Below are positions 6,522 to 26,432 of a stretch of 26,432 nucleotides of DNA, piece after piece. A program made the translations under genes and the position numbers. This DNA is from a virus: the IMG/VR virus record IMGVR_UViG_3300021197_001060, positions 1-26,432 of that record; one strand, 5' to 3'. The notes below the pieces were generated by a model that saw only the letters and a list, made by a program, of their open reading frames with translations, was not told where the DNA came from and ran no database searches. Positions within the stretch are counted from its first letter, which is position 1; each line of letters begins with the position of its first letter.

Positions 6522-6933
6522 CAAACTCTAACCAACCCGCAATACCTGCCGCCCTGTCATTCTCCATACGGGCGGCTTCTTCTTTGTAATGCCTGGCTAT
6601 TTCTTTCTGCTCTTTGTTCATGCGCCTGCCTAGGTCAATGTCCTCGGCCTTCTCTCTAATCAACTCAAGGCATCCTTCGCCGTAGGTATCTATGTAGTGG
6701 CGAACAAAGTAATCAGGATTGCTGCCGTACTTTTGATGGCACCCGTAACAGTGTGCGAAGGCGTTTAGCGCATCGTACCGAATCCCTTTCTTGGATCTGC
6801 TGAAGTAGTGCGAGCAGTGTAGTCCTGTGCTGTTTGACTCGTACTGTGCGCCACAACCTTGGCACTTAAAGTCGTTACGTATTCTGACGCACCTGCTGAA
6901 CCAATGATCTGCTGCTGTTCTTTTTAGTTTCAT
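6508..6933 (-). CDS. ninG: NinG/Rap-like recombination endonuclease
   Basis: A 141-residue protein with a treble-clef/HNH-like zinc site: C24xxC27, then C40-S-H42 followed by an Arg-containing segment, D54 and N57, then C62-Y-G-C65. This arrangement is the hallmark of lambda NinG (Rap), a structure-specific nuclease that cuts recombination intermediates. The C terminus is a charged helix. It is the last gene of the - strand operon, its ATG overlapping the upstream stop (ATGA), which places it beside a NinB-like protein as in the lambda nin region. The alternative is a generic HNH nuclease. Confidence 0.8.
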   Translation of the reverse strand: MKLKRTAADHWFSRCVRIRNDFKCQGCGAQYESNSTGLHCSHYFSRSKKGIRYDALNAFAHCYGCHQKYGSNPDYFVRHYIDTYGEGCLELIREKAEDIDLGRRMNKEQKEIARHYKEEAARMENDRAAGIAGWLEFVSWD

Positions 6934-7397
6934 TTGCTTTCACTTATCCTGTCTAAGTCTCTTAAATCAAATATGTAACTGGCTTTTGCATTTCCCTTTG
7001 TGTCGTCTTTCCTATTTTTGTATTCATGTTTTACAGCCTTCCCAGCCTTAACTAAAGACCTAGCTCGGTCAACTGTAATCATGTATATGCCAGACCATTC
7101 AACATCAAGAATAATTATGATGTTTGGATACAGGCTTGAGTACCGCTCAAGATCTTTTTGGTTAATAGATATCGCATACTTTGAAGGTATACCAAACAAC
7201 TCCTCAGACTTTCTCCACGGTTCCCGCACACTTTTTAAGTCCATGGGGATCATGCCAACAAGGTCGTGAGTAAAAGGGTTATTATGTTTTTCTGGGTTCA
7301 TTGCTATTCCCCATCCCGCTATCTTATTAACGGCCACAAAGTCTTTTTCTGCTAACTCCCCAGCTTTGCACCATGCTTTCTTGTCTTCATTGTTCAC
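6930..7397 (-). CDS. Putative PD-(D/E)XK nuclease
   Basis: A 155-residue protein with a GTG start that overlaps the stop of the ninB-like gene (GTGA). Residues fit a PD-(D/E)XK nuclease core: a helix with Glu14/Glu17 (AGELAEKDF), Asp45 in THDLVG, then D53-L-K55 in MDLKSV, followed by beta strands around IIIILDVEWSGIYMI. Such proteins act as resolvases or exonucleases. Lying between NinB-like and NinG-like proteins, and near an annealing protein, it probably processes recombination or replication intermediates. The motif reading is mine and the sequence is divergent; a profile search could overturn it. Confidence 0.5.
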   Translation of the reverse strand: MNNEDKKAWCKAGELAEKDFVAVNKIAGWGIAMNPEKHNNPFTHDLVGMIPMDLKSVREPWRKSEELFGIPSKYAISINQKDLERYSSLYPNIIIILDVEWSGIYMITVDRARSLVKAGKAVKHEYKNRKDDTKGNAKASYIFDLRDLDRISESK

Positions 7398-7816
7398 CGC
7401 AGCTGATCCTTGAGTTGTTGAGGAAATGGCACATATACCTGCTTATGCTCTGAAAGCCACCTGATTAGCACCTCAGCGGCTTCTGATAGCTCCTGTGCGG
7501 TTAGCTTGCCTGTAGAGCTTTTATCGTACATGGACTTAATGATGGGCTTGTAGAGCGTCTCCTTTACTAGAACCTCGGTAAAAGGAATCTCGAAGGCATC
7601 GCTAAAGGGGTGACGCACCCAATATCCTGCATCATTTAGCTCATTCGCTATCTGCCTAAACCATAGGTGCATAGCGTTGTTCTGTCTATCACTGCGCGTT
7701 GTGTCCTTGATTGCGTACAGTATCTTCTTGCCGTCATCGAACTGCGTAGTAACGAAAGCAATAAAAAAGTTCATCTTGTCTTTAGTATCGACAAGCCAGC
7801 GGTGTGATGTATCCAT
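7394..7816 (-). CDS. ninB: NinB/Orf-like recombination mediator
   Basis: A 140-residue protein. Residues 41-59 (around RSDRQNNAMHLWFRQ) match the signature of NinB/Orf proteins, where an R-S-x-x-Q-N-x segment precedes a helix. Lambda Orf is a recombination mediator that helps annealing proteins use SSB-covered DNA. The ATG is preceded by AGGAG. Unusually, the 154-base leader between this gene and the upstream ATPase consists largely of 9-bp repeats and a hairpin. It is the first of three coupled genes (ninB-like, PD-(D/E)XK-like, ninG-like). Confidence 0.7.
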   Translation of the reverse strand: MDTSHRWLVDTKDKMNFFIAFVTTQFDDGKKILYAIKDTTRSDRQNNAMHLWFRQIANELNDAGYWVRHPFSDAFEIPFTEVLVKETLYKPIIKSMYDKSSTGKLTAQELSEAAEVLIRWLSEHKQVYVPFPQQLKDQLR

Positions 7817-7829
7817 AGGTACTCCTATT

Positions 7830-7874
7830 CAGTTTGCCCAGTTTGCCCAGTTTGCCCGGTTTGCCCCTGATGCC
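7830..7874 (-). repeat. Five tandem 9-bp repeats, left cluster
   Basis: Read on the + strand there are three perfect copies of CAGTTTGCC followed by CGGTTTGCC and CCTGATGCC, with exact period 9. On the - strand (the sense strand of ninB) each reads GGCAAACTG. The array ends about 14 bases before the ninB start. On the - strand it supplies G-runs of 3-4 spaced by 5-6 bases, which satisfies a G-quadruplex pattern. Confidence 0.9.
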
Positions 7875-7891
7875 CCAGAAAAAGGGGGCGG
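7849..7891 (-). promoter_or_regulatory. Conserved GC-hairpin plus G-tract module, copy A
   Basis: On the - strand CCGCCCCC is followed by a T-rich loop, then GGGGCAT, AGGGGCA and GGGCA units. GCCCC (7872-7876) can pair with GGGGC (7885-7889). By eye about 35 of 43 positions match a second copy at 16807-16849 on the + strand. Both copies point toward the start of an operon (ninB here, the late genes there), suggesting a shared cis-acting role whose nature is unknown. Confidence 0.65.
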
Positions 7892-7910
7892 ATTGGGCAT
7901 TTTCCTATGC

Positions 7911-7922
7911 AGGGGGCCCCCT
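7911..7922. repeat. Perfect 12-bp GC palindrome
   Basis: AGGGGGCCCCCT is a perfect palindrome lying between the two oppositely oriented 9-bp repeat clusters. It may be a protein binding site or cruciform seed; function is not known. Confidence 0.8.
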
Positions 7923-7928
7923 AAACCA

Positions 7929-7973
7929 TGGGCATTACAGGCATTGTGGGCATTCTGGGCATTCTGGGCATTA
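7929..7973 (+). repeat. Five tandem 9-bp repeats, right cluster
   Basis: Consecutive 9-bp units on the + strand are TGGGCATTA, CAGGCATTG, TGGGCATTC, TGGGCATTC and TGGGCATTA, with one isolated similar unit at 7894-7902. The cluster is in opposite orientation to the left one (units TGGGCAAAC when that is read on the - strand). The last unit contains the stop codon of the ATPase gene, so the array starts exactly where coding ends. Confidence 0.9.
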
Positions 7974-9137
7974 CATTGGTATCCAGCGGTAGTATTTTTT
8001 GCCATGCGCGCCTTTGCGCTCTAGCTTTAGGTTGTTGCCCTTGAGCAAATCAATGCAGTTCCGTAGCGTTTTTTTGGTGCATCCATTAGGATTAGTTTCT
8101 TCGTCTTGTAGCATTTCAAACAGCTCTGTTTGCGCATACAGACGACCTGCCGTCATCACGCTGCTAAGCAAGATGTACTCATCTTCATACCTGCTGATTG
8201 CTTTGCCTATGTTGATCTGCGCACGCTGCTTTTCTTTTAGGTCGGTGATGTCGTCGACTGTCATGAACTGCACAGAATCTACTGACTCTTCATATCCCAC
8301 TGTTGCACTAGTCTGCTTGTACTTGAATCCGCCCTCAAAACTAATCTGGCTACGATCCTTTTCATTAATTACTAACAGCTCTTGGTGGAAGGCGAATTTA
8401 TCGTTGACGGGATCTAGTCCAAACATATTGTCTACGTCTGCTTTGAGATCTCCAACGCCCTCATAGATTAGCCGACCATCCATGCTTCTGTGCTTGTTGC
8501 AGTGCCCTAGTAGTATGACAGTGCCACCTGCAGCAGCGAACTCGCGAAAGACGTGCAGTACCTGTCGCATATCCCCCTTGTTAAGGACTGGTGCAAACTT
8601 TTTGAGAGTGTCACAGATCACGATCTTGCCGTCTGCCTCGCCCTCCTCGCGGATAGCATTTAGCAAATGGAGTGCATCAGTAGTCGTGCGCAGGGATGGA
8701 TCTTGTGAGTTGGCCAGAGTAACCATGGTCATATCATGCTTGTGGCCCATCTTGGCTTTCTGAAGTACGCCCTTGGCTCCGTCATCTTCGTTAAAGTAGA
8801 TCACGTCAGAGCCTTTTATGAGGTTATTCCGAATACTCTGGAATAGATTGCCTAGAATCCATACGGTCTTACCAGCTCCTGACGGCGCGTATACAAGCGT
8901 TACGGTGCCGGTGGTAATCATCCCCGGTATCACGTCTTTTTCTTTTGCCAGGCGCATCTCAAGCTCTTCTATGCGGTCATTGACTGCAACACTGCGGAGT
9001 CTTGAGAGTGATGATGATCCGTTCTGTTTTGTGTGGTATGGGTTTCCCGGAAAGGCTTCGTTGATGAGTTGTTCTTTTACTACAAACGCGGGTTTCTGGC
9101 CTACTGCTTCGCAGTAATCAGCCCAGTCGTCTTGCAT
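7971..9137 (-). CDS. RecA-fold RepA/DnaB-like ATPase (replicative helicase candidate)
   Basis: A 388-residue protein. A Walker A motif is clear at residues 84-91 (APSGAGKT), Walker B at about 171-176 (KIVICD), and a motif-3-like GGTVILLGHCNKH at 204-216, in the order found in RepA/RadA/DnaB-type AAA ATPases. The C terminus (from about 325) resembles a winged-helix domain (AQTELFEMLQDEE...KKTLRNCIDLL). It probably unwinds DNA or loads a helicase during phage replication. It is transcribed divergently from the annealing-protein operon and lies directly next to the repeat clusters, which could be its binding sites. Confidence 0.75.
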   Translation of the reverse strand: MQDDWADYCEAVGQKPAFVVKEQLINEAFPGNPYHTKQNGSSSLSRLRSVAVNDRIEELEMRLAKEKDVIPGMITTGTVTLVYAPSGAGKTVWILGNLFQSIRNNLIKGSDVIYFNEDDGAKGVLQKAKMGHKHDMTMVTLANSQDPSLRTTTDALHLLNAIREEGEADGKIVICDTLKKFAPVLNKGDMRQVLHVFREFAAAGGTVILLGHCNKHRSMDGRLIYEGVGDLKADVDNMFGLDPVNDKFAFHQELLVINEKDRSQISFEGGFKYKQTSATVGYEESVDSVQFMTVDDITDLKEKQRAQINIGKAISRYEDEYILLSSVMTAGRLYAQTELFEMLQDEETNPNGCTKKTLRNCIDLLKGNNLKLERKGAHGKKYYRWIPM

Positions 9138-9276: not shown

Positions 9277-9891
9277 ATGTCAGGCACCGTAAAGATCCAT
9301 GGCAAGGAATATAAGACTGTAGCCTTGCGTGTTCAGGAGTTCAGAGAAAAGCACTCGGACTTTACTATTCAAACTGAGCTTGTTGAAGCTAACGACACCT
9401 TGGTTATTGTCAAAGCAACGATAGCCGCTGGAGGCATAGTTATTTCTACTGGCTATGCCGAAGAAGTAAGGTCAGCTAGCAAAATCAATCGTACTTCAGC
9501 CCTTGAAAATGCAGAGACCAGCGCAGTAGGCAGGGCTTTAGCATTCTTTGGAATGGGCGGATCAGAGATAGCATCTGCTGATGAGGTGGCTAATGCGATT
9601 AGTCAGCAGAACAGCCAGCCAGCTATCGAAGAAACTAACAAACTCATTGCCCATAACGAAGCATTAAAAAACAACTTTGCTTCTGTCTACTTTATTAAAG
9701 AGTACGTCAATATGGACAGCCCTAACTGGGAAAACCTAGCTGAGGCATGGGGTGAGATTTCAAATGAGGATAAGGCTGTTTTATGGCTGGCTCCTTCAAA
9801 GGGCGGGGTATTTACTACGGCTGAACGTGCCGCGCTTAGATCTGATGAGTTCAACGCCGCAAGGAAAGTAATGGGAGAAAACAATGGATGA
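9277..9891 (+). CDS. Rad52/ERF-like single-strand annealing protein
   Basis: A 204-residue protein. The N-terminal 100 residues carry alternating beta strands (IQTELVEANDTLVIVKATI) followed by the helix SALENAETSAVGRALAFFG at 74-92. This resembles the conserved T-D-A-x-x-R-A-L-x-x-F-G helix of Rad52-fold annealing proteins (Sak, ERF). Such proteins pair complementary single strands in recombination and end repair. The C-terminal part is a linker plus an acidic helical domain. It is followed by an SSB-like gene with an 8-base overlap. The family call is from motif likeness; Erf and Sak cannot be separated here. Confidence 0.65.
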   Translation: MSGTVKIHGKEYKTVALRVQEFREKHSDFTIQTELVEANDTLVIVKATIAAGGIVISTGYAEEVRSASKINRTSALENAETSAVGRALAFFGMGGSEIASADEVANAISQQNSQPAIEETNKLIAHNEALKNNFASVYFIKEYVNMDSPNWENLAEAWGEISNEDKAVLWLAPSKGGVFTTAERAALRSDEFNAARKVMGENNG

Positions 9892-10186
9892 TAAAGTCTT
9901 TGTAGATGGGATGATGGCTAAGCGGCCAGATGATGGTGCGCCTGATTTTGTAAAGCTAAAGCTGTCATTAAAGCTGGATGAGTTTGGCCCTTGGGTTGCA
10001 GCTCAAAAGGCAAAAGATCCTAGTCTTGAATGGCTCAACATCGAAGTTAAAGAAGGTCGATCTGGCAAGTGGTATGCTGAGCGTAATATGTGGAAGCCTA
10101 GCGGCGACCAGCCTGCTCGACAGCCATCTCGTAGCGGCCCGCCACGTAATGTCCAGCCTATGCCAAACGACGATATCCCTTGGTGA
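9884..10186 (+). CDS. Small SSB-like protein with acidic tip
   Basis: A 100-residue protein. A compact beta-rich segment (about 20-75, with KLKLSLKLDEFGPWV and WLNIEVKEGRSGKWYAE) is followed by a Pro/Arg/Gln-rich linker and the C terminus PNDDIPW. That ending closely mimics the D-D-D-I-P-F tip by which bacterial SSB recruits partner proteins. It overlaps the annealing-protein gene, supporting a role in ssDNA handling. An OB fold is not proven from sequence alone. A strong terminator follows 8 bases after the stop. Confidence 0.6.
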   Translation: MDDKVFVDGMMAKRPDDGAPDFVKLKLSLKLDEFGPWVAAQKAKDPSLEWLNIEVKEGRSGKWYAERNMWKPSGDQPARQPSRSGPPRNVQPMPNDDIPW

Positions 10187-10228: not shown

Positions 10229-10417
10229 ATGAATGAGAAAACCGAATACCTTTATTACCGCGATCTGTTTCACATCTTTAAGGCGTATACGTCACCGAAG
10301 TTAATTAGAGTGCTGGAGTCTCAAGGCATTAAGTATTTTACTGATGCAAACGGCAAGCCCTTTACTACAAGGGCCGCCATCGAAGGGGCATTAACCGAAG
10401 AAGACCAGCCTGCCTAG
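10229..10417 (+). CDS. Small DUF4224/excisionase-like protein
   Basis: A 62-residue protein with AGGAG at the right distance. The segment LIRVLESQGIKYFTDANGKPF followed by TTRAAIEGAL (residues 24-55) has the pattern of DUF4224-type and excisionase-like winged-helix proteins, in which a short helix leads to GI-x-x-x-x-x-x-x-G-x-P. A DNA-binding regulator is the likely role. The gene sits behind a terminator, so it is probably expressed by readthrough. Its stop TAG and the opposite gene's stop share the tetranucleotide CTAG. Confidence 0.6.
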   Translation: MNEKTEYLYYRDLFHIFKAYTSPKLIRVLESQGIKYFTDANGKPFTTRAAIEGALTEEDQPA

Positions 10418-11568
10418 GCTCTTGGTCTGATGGTTATCCGACTAACTTCGCCATCCTGTGAGTCGTATGTAATAACCTTTGCGCCACGCTGGGACATAAG
10501 CCCTAAACGTGTGGCGTATGAATCCCTAGATGCAAGCGTGGGGTGCTGTTCTGTAATGGCCCCCGCGTCTTCCAGCAATCTTTCGTGGTGGTAATGGCCT
10601 GAATGAATATAAGCTATCTTTGACTTACCCCAATCCTCTCTGAATCTAGGCTCGCTTGAGAATACCTTGGGCAAGCTACCCATCTTTGCCTTATGCCCAT
10701 GGTGAAAGCACAGCATAGTCTCGCCATGCCGATAAGCGTAGTAAGGGAAATCGTTGTCGATGACCTCAAGCCTTGGCTCCTTGGAATACAGCTTCCTAAT
10801 AAACTTACGTAGCCATATAGAGCCAGCAATGTCATGGTTGCCCTCAGCACATACGAACACCACCTTCTCGTATTTTTCTAGCATCATTCGGACAGCTTCA
10901 TCCATGACTGTCATCGCTATATCTACTATGCGCGAGTATCTAGAGTCACCTTCAAGCAGATTTTTACCTGACGGAGTGAGCTGCTCTAAACCGTCCCAGT
11001 GCAGGAAGTCTCCCAGATTGCAGAGCATTCCTATCTTACTCTTGGGCGTACTGTCGATCATCTCCTTGATGCTGGACAGAAATAAATCTCTCGCCATGTT
11101 GGTGTCGTAGTCTTCACTGGTCTCTTGTCCCCAGCAGTAGCTGCCCAGGTGAAAATCCGTAATGACCAGCAAACTTAATAAGTCTTGCTCAACCTGCTTT
11201 GGCTTTTTGACTGGCTTCCATGGGGTAATGCCATCGCACGCTATTTCAATACGCTTAATCATTGCCTGGAACTGAGCTTCTTTGTCGGCAATAGACTTAA
11301 CCCATTGACCAACTGGCTTGCCTTCATCGTTGTAATAAGTTGATACGCCCTTTACGTTAAACCCCGAAGGGACAGTGTGCGTCATATCGTGCTGAGGTGA
11401 GTAACCTTGTGCAGCAGCCTTGTCTCTGACTGACTTAACAATATCTCTGACAGTCCATCTAGATCCGCCAACTTCTTTGGCTATGTTTGTATAGCCCATG
11501 CCAAGTTCGTGCATCTCGATAACTTTGCGTTGCTTTTCGGTAGTGCAATATCTTAATAAACTCATCAT
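10414..11568 (-). CDS. HTH-domain metallophosphoesterase
   Basis: 384 residues from the ATG chosen at 11568; an upstream TTG at 11640 would overlap the neighbouring gene and is unlikely. Residues 10-48 form a helix-turn-helix (EKQRKVIEMHELGMGYTNIA then GGSRWTVRDIV). Residues 130-380 are a calcineurin-like phosphoesterase with all metal motifs: DFH 138-140, GD 186-187, GNHD 243-246, HHGHK 289-293 and SGHYHHE 323-329. Mre11/SbcD-like nucleases share these motifs, so a DNA phosphodiesterase is plausible. The substrate is unknown. The DNA-binding N terminus suggests the enzyme is directed to DNA. Confidence 0.8.
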   Translation of the reverse strand: MMSLLRYCTTEKQRKVIEMHELGMGYTNIAKEVGGSRWTVRDIVKSVRDKAAAQGYSPQHDMTHTVPSGFNVKGVSTYYNDEGKPVGQWVKSIADKEAQFQAMIKRIEIACDGITPWKPVKKPKQVEQDLLSLLVITDFHLGSYCWGQETSEDYDTNMARDLFLSSIKEMIDSTPKSKIGMLCNLGDFLHWDGLEQLTPSGKNLLEGDSRYSRIVDIAMTVMDEAVRMMLEKYEKVVFVCAEGNHDIAGSIWLRKFIRKLYSKEPRLEVIDNDFPYYAYRHGETMLCFHHGHKAKMGSLPKVFSSEPRFREDWGKSKIAYIHSGHYHHERLLEDAGAITEQHPTLASRDSYATRLGLMSQRGAKVITYDSQDGEVSRITIRPRA

Positions 11569-11590
11569 CTCCCCCCGGATAGATGTTGTT

Positions 11591-11797
11591 TTATGGCTGC
11601 AAGTTTCGCATCGTATTTGCTCTAGCAAGTACGGCGACAATTTGAGTTAGCTCAACAGGATCTACAGAAATAGTTATGTTCGACTCTTCGGTGTGCGCTA
11701 CTTTTGTGTAGTGTAAGTGAAGGTAGGATAGCAATGTCGACAGAGCTTCTTCTTCTGTTCGTATTGGTTTCAGTGCCTCTTCAGGCTTCGTAGCCAT
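11591..11797 (-). CDS. Hypothetical protein, 68 aa
   Basis: A 68-residue acidic protein with a good GGAG ribosome binding site. It is mostly helical with a central segment ISVDPVELTQIVAVLARA. It ends 22 bases before the phosphoesterase ATG and is probably cotranscribed with it. About 200 bases upstream lack a recognisable gene, so a promoter for this pair could lie there. No family recognised. Confidence 0.6.
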   Translation of the reverse strand: MATKPEEALKPIRTEEEALSTLLSYLHLHYTKVAHTEESNITISVDPVELTQIVAVLARANTMRNLQP

Positions 11798-15967: not shown

Positions 15968-16225
15968 TTATTTGCCAGCATTGGCAACATTGTGTAGGTA
16001 ATCGAGTCTGCGCTCTGCTCTCTCGATCTCTGCGGCGTGCTTGTCATCAACCTTCATGCTAAGCATCGTCTTACCTGATTTCGTCTTGCGCTCCCATATG
16101 GCGACCTCAAGGCGCTTGCCCTCGAAGAGGATCTCGCCTTTGAACTGTGGAGCTTTGTCGGATCGCTCAAGACCGCGATCGTTGTGGAATGCTAAACCTG
16201 AATTTGGATTGAGTTCTAATGACAT
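15968..16225 (-). CDS. DUF736-like small protein, 85 aa
   Basis: An 85-residue protein: NPNSGLAFHNDR at the start, then PQFKGEILFEGKRLEVAIWERKT and KSGKTMLSMKVDD. This N-x-G-x-x-F-x-N opening, W-x-x-x-x-K-x-G-K-x-x-x-S ending and beta-rich middle resemble DUF736-type proteins found on phages and plasmids, sometimes compared to OB-fold ssDNA binders. The last 20 residues form a basic/acidic helix. As the first - strand gene beside the control region it is probably the first transcribed of this arm. Confidence 0.6.
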   Translation of the reverse strand: MSLELNPNSGLAFHNDRGLERSDKAPQFKGEILFEGKRLEVAIWERKTKSGKTMLSMKVDDKHAAEIERAERRLDYLHNVANAGK

Positions 16226-16582: not shown

Positions 16583-16636
16583 GGATCATCATGCAGAGTC
16601 AACAGGGTCATCATGCAGAATCTACGGGGTCATCGG
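16583..16636 (+). repeat. 22-bp direct repeats (two full, one partial)
   Basis: Units begin at 16583, 16605 and 16627 with exact 22-bp spacing. Each starts GG(A/G)TCATC; the first two continue ATGCAGA(G/A)TC. Two helical turns per unit would place a bound protein on one face of the DNA. Candidate iterons or operator. Confidence 0.65.
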
Positions 16637-16806
16637 CTAAAAGATGGAACGATTAACGGGGACGGGGAGGGGGGTCAGCGGATCACCAGTATAGTAGTTC
16701 CCACCCAGACACAAAAAAGGAGTATTTTGGAATTACGTTAAGTATCTGTTTCCTTTAGTTATATTGTAGGTATTTTTATTCCATTAAGTTCTAAGGTATA
16801 ACTAAC

Positions 16807-16849
16807 CCGCCCCCTATTTGTGGGGCATTAGGGGCATTCTGGGCATTCT
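16807..16849 (+). promoter_or_regulatory. Conserved GC-hairpin plus G-tract module, copy B
   Basis: CCGCCCCC, a T-rich loop, then GGGGCATTA, GGGGCATTC and GGGCATTC. It matches the - strand module at 7891-7849 with about 35 of 43 bases equal by eye and in the same orientation relative to the following operon. It lies about 110 bases before the first late gene. GCCCC can pair with GGGGC. Confidence 0.65.
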
Positions 16850-16883
16850 AGTAATTTAGTGGTAAAAAAGAGCATCCGAGGCC

Positions 16884-16912
16884 TTGTCTAACTAAAAGTA
16901 TATATATAGGAT
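16884..16912 (+). promoter_or_regulatory. Candidate promoter of the late operon
   Basis: TTGTCT (16884-16889) and TAGGAT (16907-16912) with a 17-base AT-rich spacer, each matching the sigma-70 consensus at 4 of 6. A transcript from here would begin almost directly with the terminator-like hairpin at 16923. Confidence 0.4.
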
Positions 16913-16922
16913 AGGGAGGGTA

Positions 16923-16948
16923 GGAGGGCAAATAGCCCTTCTTTTTTT
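16923..16948 (+). terminator. Terminator abutting the first late-gene RBS
   Basis: A 7-bp stem GGAGGGC/GCCCTTC (one G-T pair), loop AAATA, then seven T (16942-16948). The next bases GGAG are the ribosome binding site for the ATG at 16960. The position suggests a leader terminator that must be overridden for late expression, or termination of upstream noise. Confidence 0.75.
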
Positions 16949-16959
16949 GGAGAGTAGAC

Positions 16960-17139
16960 ATGGAAAAGAAAGATCACACGGTTACCTATACACCTACGGA
17001 ATACTATTCGATGTGCGAAACGTCGAAGAGGCGCGTTAAGGAGATGCAGGAGCGTGGTATTCCTACTAAGTACGACCCTAAAGAGAATCCAGAAGAAGCG
17101 GGTCAAATGGATTCGTTCGGCTTTGTAATGATTAAGTAA
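16960..17139 (+). CDS. Small first late-operon protein, 59 aa
   Basis: An ATG 7 bases after GGAG, first gene of the + strand late operon. The 59 residues are polar and charged, with a short helix (MCETSKRRVKEMQERG) and an acidic linker, ending FGFVMIK. No family recognised. It could be a packaging accessory given its place before the probable terminase small subunit candidate. Confidence 0.6.
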   Translation: MEKKDHTVTYTPTEYYSMCETSKRRVKEMQERGIPTKYDPKENPEEAGQMDSFGFVMIK

Positions 17140-25174: not shown

Positions 25175-26432
25175 ATGCCTTTATTCCGTGGAACAGGTGG
25201 TTCTGGTGATGCTAGTACTGATGCGTATGCTTCACAGGTAGCTACCGACGCCCAGACTGCCACTACTAAAGCAAATGAAGCTAGTGCTTCTGCAACGGCA
25301 GCGGCAACCTCAGCATCAAACGCGGCAGGGTCTGAAGCGTCTGTATCAACAGATGCAACTACTGCGTCCAATGCAGCGTCTGCAGCACAAACTGCTCAGA
25401 CCGCATCAGAAACAGCTAAGACTGCATCAGAGACAGCGCAGACTGCGTCGGAAACTGCTAAGACTGCAGCAGAGACAGCAAAGACTAGTGCTGAAACTGC
25501 TAAGACTGCAGCAGAGACAGCGGAAACTAATGCTGCTGCTTCTGCTACTACAGCAACTACCAAAGCAAGTGAGGCTAGTTCTTCTGCAACTAGTGCTACC
25601 TCTAGCGCCTCCTCAGCGTCCACCTCAGCGACGAACGCTGCTACCAGTGCTACTGCTGCACAAACAGCACAAACTGCAGCAGAGACCGCTAAAACGGCTG
25701 CTGAGGCTGCTCAGAACGCTATTGACGGTTTGTACCTTGGCGCACAATCGAGCAACCCTACGGTAGACTTAAACGGCAGCGCTATTACCACTGGTGACTG
25801 GTACTTCAATACAAGTGACAACAGTACTAGAATTTATACAGGAAGTGCTTGGGACTCAATTAATCCTAATCTTGTTGGCGACACTAGCCCGCAGTTAGGC
25901 GGTAACTTAGATTTAAACAGTAGAGACATTACAGGCACTGGTAACGTTGGTATTACTGGCAACATAACACTGTCAGGCACTGTAGACGGTCGTGACGTAG
26001 CAGCAGACGGCACCAAACTAGACGGTGTTGAAGCTAGTGCTGATGTTACAGATACGGCTAATGTAACAAGCGCTGGTGCATTAATGGATAGCGAGCTTGC
26101 AAGTATCGCAGATGTAAAAGCATTAAATCAATCAGTAGTAAGCGGGGCAACACCTACATTTACAACTACTAATTTTACTGATGCCACAAATAAAAGGTTA
26201 ATGACTGATGCTCAAGAAACAAAACTTGATTCAGTTGAAAGCAACGCCACTGCTGATCAGACTGATGCAGAGATTAGAGCCGCTGTCGAAGCCGCTACAG
26301 ATTCCAATGTTTTTACGGACGCTGACCATACTAAGTTAAACGCTATTGAAGCTTCAGCAGACGTAACCGACACAGCTAATGTTACAGCCGCTGGTGCGTT
26401 AATGGATTCGGAAGTTACTAACCTTTCACAGG
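25175..26432 (+). CDS. Tail fibre-like protein, 3' partial
   Basis: ATG 25175 with AGGAG ahead; open to the right edge, about 419 residues visible. Residues about 12-180 are Ala/Thr/Ser-rich with repeated SETAKTA-type heptads, a trimeric coiled-coil stem. Next WYFNTSDNSTRIYTGSAW resembles a common fibre segment. Repeats TKLDGVEASADVTDTANVT and GALMDSE recur at about residues 286 and 392. Host-recognition fibre is the likely role. It would be followed by further tail genes outside the window. Confidence 0.8.
   Translation, partial: MPLFRGTGGSGDASTDAYASQVATDAQTATTKANEASASATAAATSASNAAGSEASVSTDATTASNAASAAQTAQTASETAKTASETAQTASETAKTAAETAKTSAETAKTAAETAETNAAASATTATTKASEASSSATSATSSASSASTSATNAATSATAAQTAQTAAETAKTAAEAAQNAIDGLYLGAQSSNPTVDLNGSAITTGDWYFNTSDNSTRIYTGSAWDSINPNLVGDTSPQLGGNLDLNSRDITGTGNVGITGNITLSGTVDGRDVAADGTKLDGVEASADVTDTANVTSAGALMDSELASIADVKALNQSVVSGATPTFTTTNFTDATNKRLMTDAQETKLDSVESNATADQTDAEIRAAVEAATDSNVFTDADHTKLNAIEASADVTDTANVTAAGALMDSEVTNLSQ

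Follow-up and report, generated by a model that had tools for sequence, protein, structure and literature searches.

Which protein reads two opposed clusters of 9-bp repeats lying behind an ATPase gene in an uncultured phage, and what do these repeats do for the phage? The locus lies in a 26,432-base virus record, called the window hereafter. The original prediction proposed a new kind of replication origin, a partition-like site or an RNA control element. We approached the question by comparing the window with its relatives, following in parallel the letters of the repeats and the residues of the proteins encoded around them.

The repeat element and its conservation

Read along the minus strand, the region is ordered as the ATPase gene (9137-7971), the element, a NinB/Orf-like gene (7394..7816), a short gene and a NinG/Rap-like gene. 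The five plus five units in opposed clusters that had been predicted were indeed found. The ninB-side arm (7833..7877, minus strand) is of the CTGGGCAAA type in transcript orientation and is kept in relatives; its five 9-bp units read TTTGCCCAG, TTTGCCCAG, TTTGCCCGG, TTTGCCCCT and GATGCCCCA, preceded by CAG at 7830-7832. The ATPase-side arm (7929..7973, plus strand) comprises five 9-bp units of the CTGGGCATT type (TGGGCATTA, CAGGCATTG, TGGGCATTC, TGGGCATTC and TGGGCATTA) and overlaps the ATPase stop codon, which is, in the window, the complement of its final three bases. The unstranded centre (7878..7928) is GC-rich and contains G-run and C-run motifs, a lone unit TGGGCATTT at 7894-7902 and the 12-bp palindrome AGGGGGCCCCCT at 7911-7922. 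Such an arrangement lies far beyond chance. The lag-9 scores of the arms were 31 and 30 out of 36 comparisons; 200 Markov-simulated windows never scored above 23. The double-core pattern had 9 matches in the window where 0.22 were expected.

The family carrying the element is composed of uncultured phages, mostly marine. More than 100 relatives of the ATPase are present in IMG/VR, and the annotated phage collection INPHARED provided no match to it at E<=1e-5. With a relaxed limit, Campylobacter phage CAM-P21 was the sole weakly significant match there (E=2e-4), and no comparable array was seen near its matching gene. One 3-kb contig of a gammaproteobacterial MAG was the only genome match, too weak for naming a host.

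The main element is found 3' of the AAA_25 ATPase gene and before the next genes in 81 of 81 phages, window included, and the repeats are neither absent, scrambled nor translated in the relatives. Counted by exact GGG/CCC runs, the arms hold 2-6 units, mostly 3-5, and the centre spans 28-128 nt, most often 43-44. The unit cores vary by phage (TGGGCA, TGGGGA/TGGGTA or GGGCCA), both arms of one phage being of a single type. Two details of the original prediction proved to be local. The palindrome exists in the window but is not conserved, its place being mostly taken in relatives by TTTAGGGGGCGGGT, usually at one edge of the centre. Likewise, the element starts at the ATPase stop codon in the window but not generally: an extra gene separates ATPase and array in several relatives, where the array begins 260-445 nt past the stop, and the link with the stop codon is therefore incidental.

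Some variants of the layout deserve mention. In four relatives (L050, L052, L065 and L068), the order of the ATT-type and AAA-type arms relative to the ATPase gene is the reverse of that in the window, which looks like an inversion of the whole element, and the centre motif is present in both orientations among relatives. One contig of 58241 bases (IMGVR_UViG_3300046167_000364; L169-L171) bears two complete elements about 36 kb apart, which suggests two joined phages or a misassembly. TGGGCA arrays on six other contigs (L089, L090, L096, L097, L100 and L104) were discarded, being in unrelated settings or formed by repeats within reading frames.

The arms are complementary, their folds are strong and some centres resemble terminators, as would befit an RNA structure in which the arms of the ATPase-ninB transcript pair as a long hairpin controlling ninB translation or termination. 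Complementarity is, however, expected of any inverted array of binding sites. Across 66 distinct elements folded on both strands, G-U pairs amounted to 206/2805 in the sense and 196/2828 in the antisense direction, and the sense strand was the more stable in 26/66 only. Neither the G-U pairs nor the energies of the predicted folds are biased towards one strand, contrary to the RNA control element first envisaged. A hairpin would also leave unexplained a remote array with a single arm and the link between the units and the residues of a winged helix, both described below. Because this remote copy is single-armed and the winged-helix residues track the units, duplex DNA is favoured as the form that is recognised, and we give hardly any credence to the RNA alternative.

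The ATPase winged helix as candidate reader

The proposed reader is the 388-aa product of the ATPase gene (7971..9137, minus strand), a RepA-like, RecA-fold protein matching phrog_6357 and Pfam AAA_25 (E=1.8e-11; 44.5 bits, above the curated cut-off of 27). The AAA_25 domain was detected with Pfam in 44 of the 44 family members scanned, and the D5/Primase_Cterm and DUF927 domains in none. The phrog_6357 member of phage CAM-P21 has further matches, to primase/helicase and DnaB-like helicase families. Taken at the level of the family only, these assignments (AAA_25, phrog_6357 and the CAM-P21 member) support a putative helicase character for the ATPase.

Residues 321-388 (7974..8177, minus strand) form a predicted C-terminal winged-helix domain, identified from an AlphaFold model with a pLDDT of 90 and from co-variation with the units. 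The model starts at ATPase residue 285, so that its residues 71-81 correspond to 355-365, and it displays the succession helix, helix, strand, helix, helix and two-stranded wing. In the full-length model, which is of poor quality (pLDDT 61), the winged helix is again confident. Structural matches in the PDB included PadR- and Fur-kind regulators and other winged helices, with E of about 0.01 to 0.08; a sequence-based search returned no solved structure.

Residues of this domain vary with the letters of the repeats. With units written NNGGGxNNN, position 6 (x) is C in 63 phages and, by consensus, G or A in 18, whose single units have G, T or A. All 63 phages with C carry Arg359, and all 18 non-C phages carry Leu359. 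In one of the comparisons, residues 333 and 340 likewise split the C types from the G types in every case, and residue 357 in nearly every case. A C at position 7 accompanies Tyr340 in 10/11. Residues 357 and 359 belong to the predicted recognition helix (355-365), residue 340 to the preceding helix and residue 333 to the first strand. On a tree built from ATPase residues 1-280 only, the N-terminal domain, 9 changes of unit type are counted, of which at least 6 fall on well-supported branches, and residue 359 switches the same way in 6/6 independent pairs.

No column separating the types was found in ATPase residues 1-316, nor in the NinB (encoded just past the element), NinG, SSB-like, ERF-like and excisionase-like proteins. 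The best column overlap was 0.14-0.28 in ATPase 1-316 and these control proteins versus 0 for several C-terminal columns of the ATPase; a further control protein (6930-7397), with only 7 sequences, was left out. The five control proteins were consequently rejected as array readers, leaving the ATPase as the sole tested protein with residues that track the unit type. Repeat letters and the amino acids presumed to read them change in step across the 81 phages, which makes the ATPase the likely reader, and we strongly infer from this co-variation that the arrays are DNA sites recognised by its C-terminal domain.

A single-armed array ahead of the terminase genes

A second array, overlooked in the original prediction, is located far from the ATPase gene. 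This remote half-element (16806..16849, plus strand) consists of a CCCGCCCCCTA motif, whose complement recurs at the edge of the main centre, followed by three units, TGGGGCATT AGGGGCATT CTGGGCATT, at 16821-16849. It is separated from the main element by 8.9 kb in the window and by 7.5-9.4 kb in clade members with a contig spanning the interval; the linear contigs of G001, G012 and G017 are cut differently, giving a longer distance on the contig. In 11/11 genomes where a remote array was found, its type is that of the main element, namely C in seven (the window, WIN, with G002, G003, G009, G012, G017 and G020) and G in four (G001, G008, G040 and G041). Elsewhere in the genomes, arrays of their own type were limited to isolated single pairs. 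Most of the distant relatives have no clear remote array, the main element being universal.

How specificity may be exchanged is seen when the window is set against G001, its nearest relative. In 60-nt steps, the nucleotide identity of the ATPase genes is 87-98% up to residue 320 and 63-78% across most of the winged helix; the array is switched, and ninB is near-identical again. This pattern suggests that the winged helix and the main array can move as one block. The core of the remote array is switched too, despite an identical left flank. Since the winged helix and the main array are adjacent and exchangeable together, the remote array bears much of the causal weight, which rests on 11 genomes. 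Its type match, together with the switch beside an identical flank, points to a trans-acting reader.

Adjacency could in principle account for the whole association, as the block that differs between the window and G001 covers both domain and array, and recombination might exchange them jointly without any functional tie. Yet the distant array agrees in type wherever it exists, NinB is equally close and has no separating column, and the columns that separate perfectly fall within the recognition helix or next to it. We therefore regard simple hitch-hiking as extremely improbable.

The setting of the half-array brings in another possible function, transcription control by the bound ATPase. The half-array sits in a long non-coding stretch ahead of rightward genes, near a conserved TATATATAGGATAGGG motif, and repressors are common among winged-helix proteins; it could control a promoter region before the terminase genes, while the main element would limit read-through into ninB. 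The main element nevertheless occupies the 3' end of the ATPase gene, without a promoter position, and two inverted multi-unit arrays with an ATPase motor domain exceed the needs of an operator. Moreover, the half-array is absent in many relatives where the main element persists. A role in transcription is thus an unlikely alternative.

The same non-coding region has other features of its own. Before the terminase genes, at 16640-16960, a conserved G-rich stretch followed by CCCACCCAGACACAAAAAA, plus TATATATAGGATAGGGAGGG, is retained in nearly all relatives; these blocks are possibly a cos/pac site or a late promoter. A 22-bp tandem repeat occupies positions 16586-16634.

A probable phage origin among known systems

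Overall, the arrays are very likely double-stranded DNA binding sites for the winged helix of the ATPase, and probably form a phage replication origin. The idea of an origin-like site read by the neighbouring ATPase has thus gained support from the co-variation of winged helix and units, the co-switching of the second array and the conservation in relatives. Other observations are unfavourable: the GC-rich centre and the absence of a skew signal, the third-position GC skew of the window being irregular and uninformative, with no switch at the main element, go against a textbook origin. The origin function is presumptive, and the ring loading, the melting and the role of the half-array that we propose below are conjectural.

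Paired iteron arrays beside an NTPase gene are also known from plasmid partition loci, and the element might be a centromere-like site for partition or anchoring bound by the ATPase. The family match of the protein, however, is AAA_25, with helicase relatives, and does not indicate a ParA-type cassette. Nor is it evident why a small phage whose genes include terminase, portal, NinB/NinG and exonuclease would need partition, which makes this reading very improbable.

As an origin, the element could work as follows. One winged helix would be bound per 9-bp unit. With about five units in each of the two opposed sets, a pair of ATPase rings would come to sit over the G-run centre in opposite orientations. 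The duplex would be opened at this centre and replication would start there, the host polymerase, the phage SSB and recombination proteins acting next. Ahead of the terminase genes, the half-array would serve as an auxiliary site, like the second site of some initiators. The remote site lies in AT-rich surroundings whereas the main centre is GC-rich, and it might itself be the place of melting.

The SaPI/PICI origins offer the closest layout, and the original designation as a new kind of replication origin was too strong in this respect. As with their Rep, two sets of short iterons on either side of a centre come after the gene of an initiator-helicase, putative in our phages, and the initiator has allelic variants (PMC6092414, PMC7581432). 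The initiator helicases of SaPI and SCCmec read, with their C-terminal domain, iterons placed just 3' of their gene, and those of SaPI/PICI apparently act on them as two hexamers (PMC7581432). The C-terminal domain would be the iteron reader here as well, and the iterons lie similarly 3' of the initiator gene, with one small gene intervening in several phages. On the other hand, the ATPase is of the AAA_25 type instead of having D5/Primase_Cterm or DUF927 domains, and the AT-rich melting centre of SaPI/PICI is replaced by a GC-rich one with G-runs. The carriers are here phages with their own terminase, portal and capsid genes, and they have an extra remote half-array. SCCmec Cch2 also binds, through the C-terminal domain of the helicase, short direct repeats just downstream of its gene, but has a D5-type (Primase_Cterm) helicase domain and three iterons only, in an integrative element and not a phage (PMC7581432). 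By this comparison, the element is organised like SaPI/PICI origins and appears to stand outside that class, as its ATPase family and its centre differ.

Other systems share parts of this organisation. The alpha protein of phage P4 joins helicase and C-terminal iteron binding on one polypeptide, and its iterons occupy two genome sites (ori and crr). The phages studied here similarly have iterons at two separate places and, as predicted, a combined helicase and iteron reader; unlike P4 alpha, which has a primase and an SF3 helicase, their ATPase matched no primase domain, and unit and layout are different. In the RepA-RepB-RepC-oriV system of RSF1010/IncQ, RepA is a hexameric ATPase and RepC binds the iterons of the origin. 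The RepA-like ATPase family and the iteron origin, probable in our case, are common to both, but the reading domain, carried in RSF1010/IncQ by a separate RepC, is apparently fused to the ATPase in our phages. TGGG repeats, with a period of 10, are also known for MraZ.

A more elaborate model can be put forward tentatively, with rather less confidence than the origin itself. A self-loading RecA-fold (RepA-like) helicase would come with a winged helix of its own for reading the origin. Two rings would be loaded by a pair of opposed 9-bp arrays on an origin that is GC-rich. The protein-DNA specificity would pass repeatedly among related phages as a module, each exchange requiring that a distant second site be rewritten too. 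Such exchange perhaps keeps competing phages or satellites from using one another's origins. The selective reason behind the switching of origin specificity becomes testable. The 81 proteins and their sites also constitute a natural experiment on DNA recognition, with a one-residue/one-base match on independent branches. Protein sequence could then predict the unit type, and origins could be located in metagenomic phages.

The neighbouring genes complete the picture of the locus. A DNA repair exonuclease and an ArdC-like protein are encoded nearby, with terminase, portal and major head genes to the right. No match to a DNA polymerase or primase was obtained among the genes scanned. An ERF-like protein in the vicinity, so named from our own reading of its sequence, matches phrog_11717, a family without functional annotation, and one of its matches in the phage collection is annotated as mgM101-like. 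A small protein (9884-10186) ending in an SSB-type acidic tail, NDDIPW, as read from the sequence, is present in nearly all relatives, and a second SSB-like match lies at 15968-16225 on the minus strand. No integrase was matched in the window, despite an excisionase-like small protein (10229-10417; phrog_1266, E=7.6e-5) that nearly all relatives possess. The exonuclease gene (10414-11640) encodes an N-terminal HTH-like segment (residues about 25-75) ahead of its metallophosphoesterase domain. Finally, a repeat with a 42-bp period is included within a coding frame at 25380-25535.
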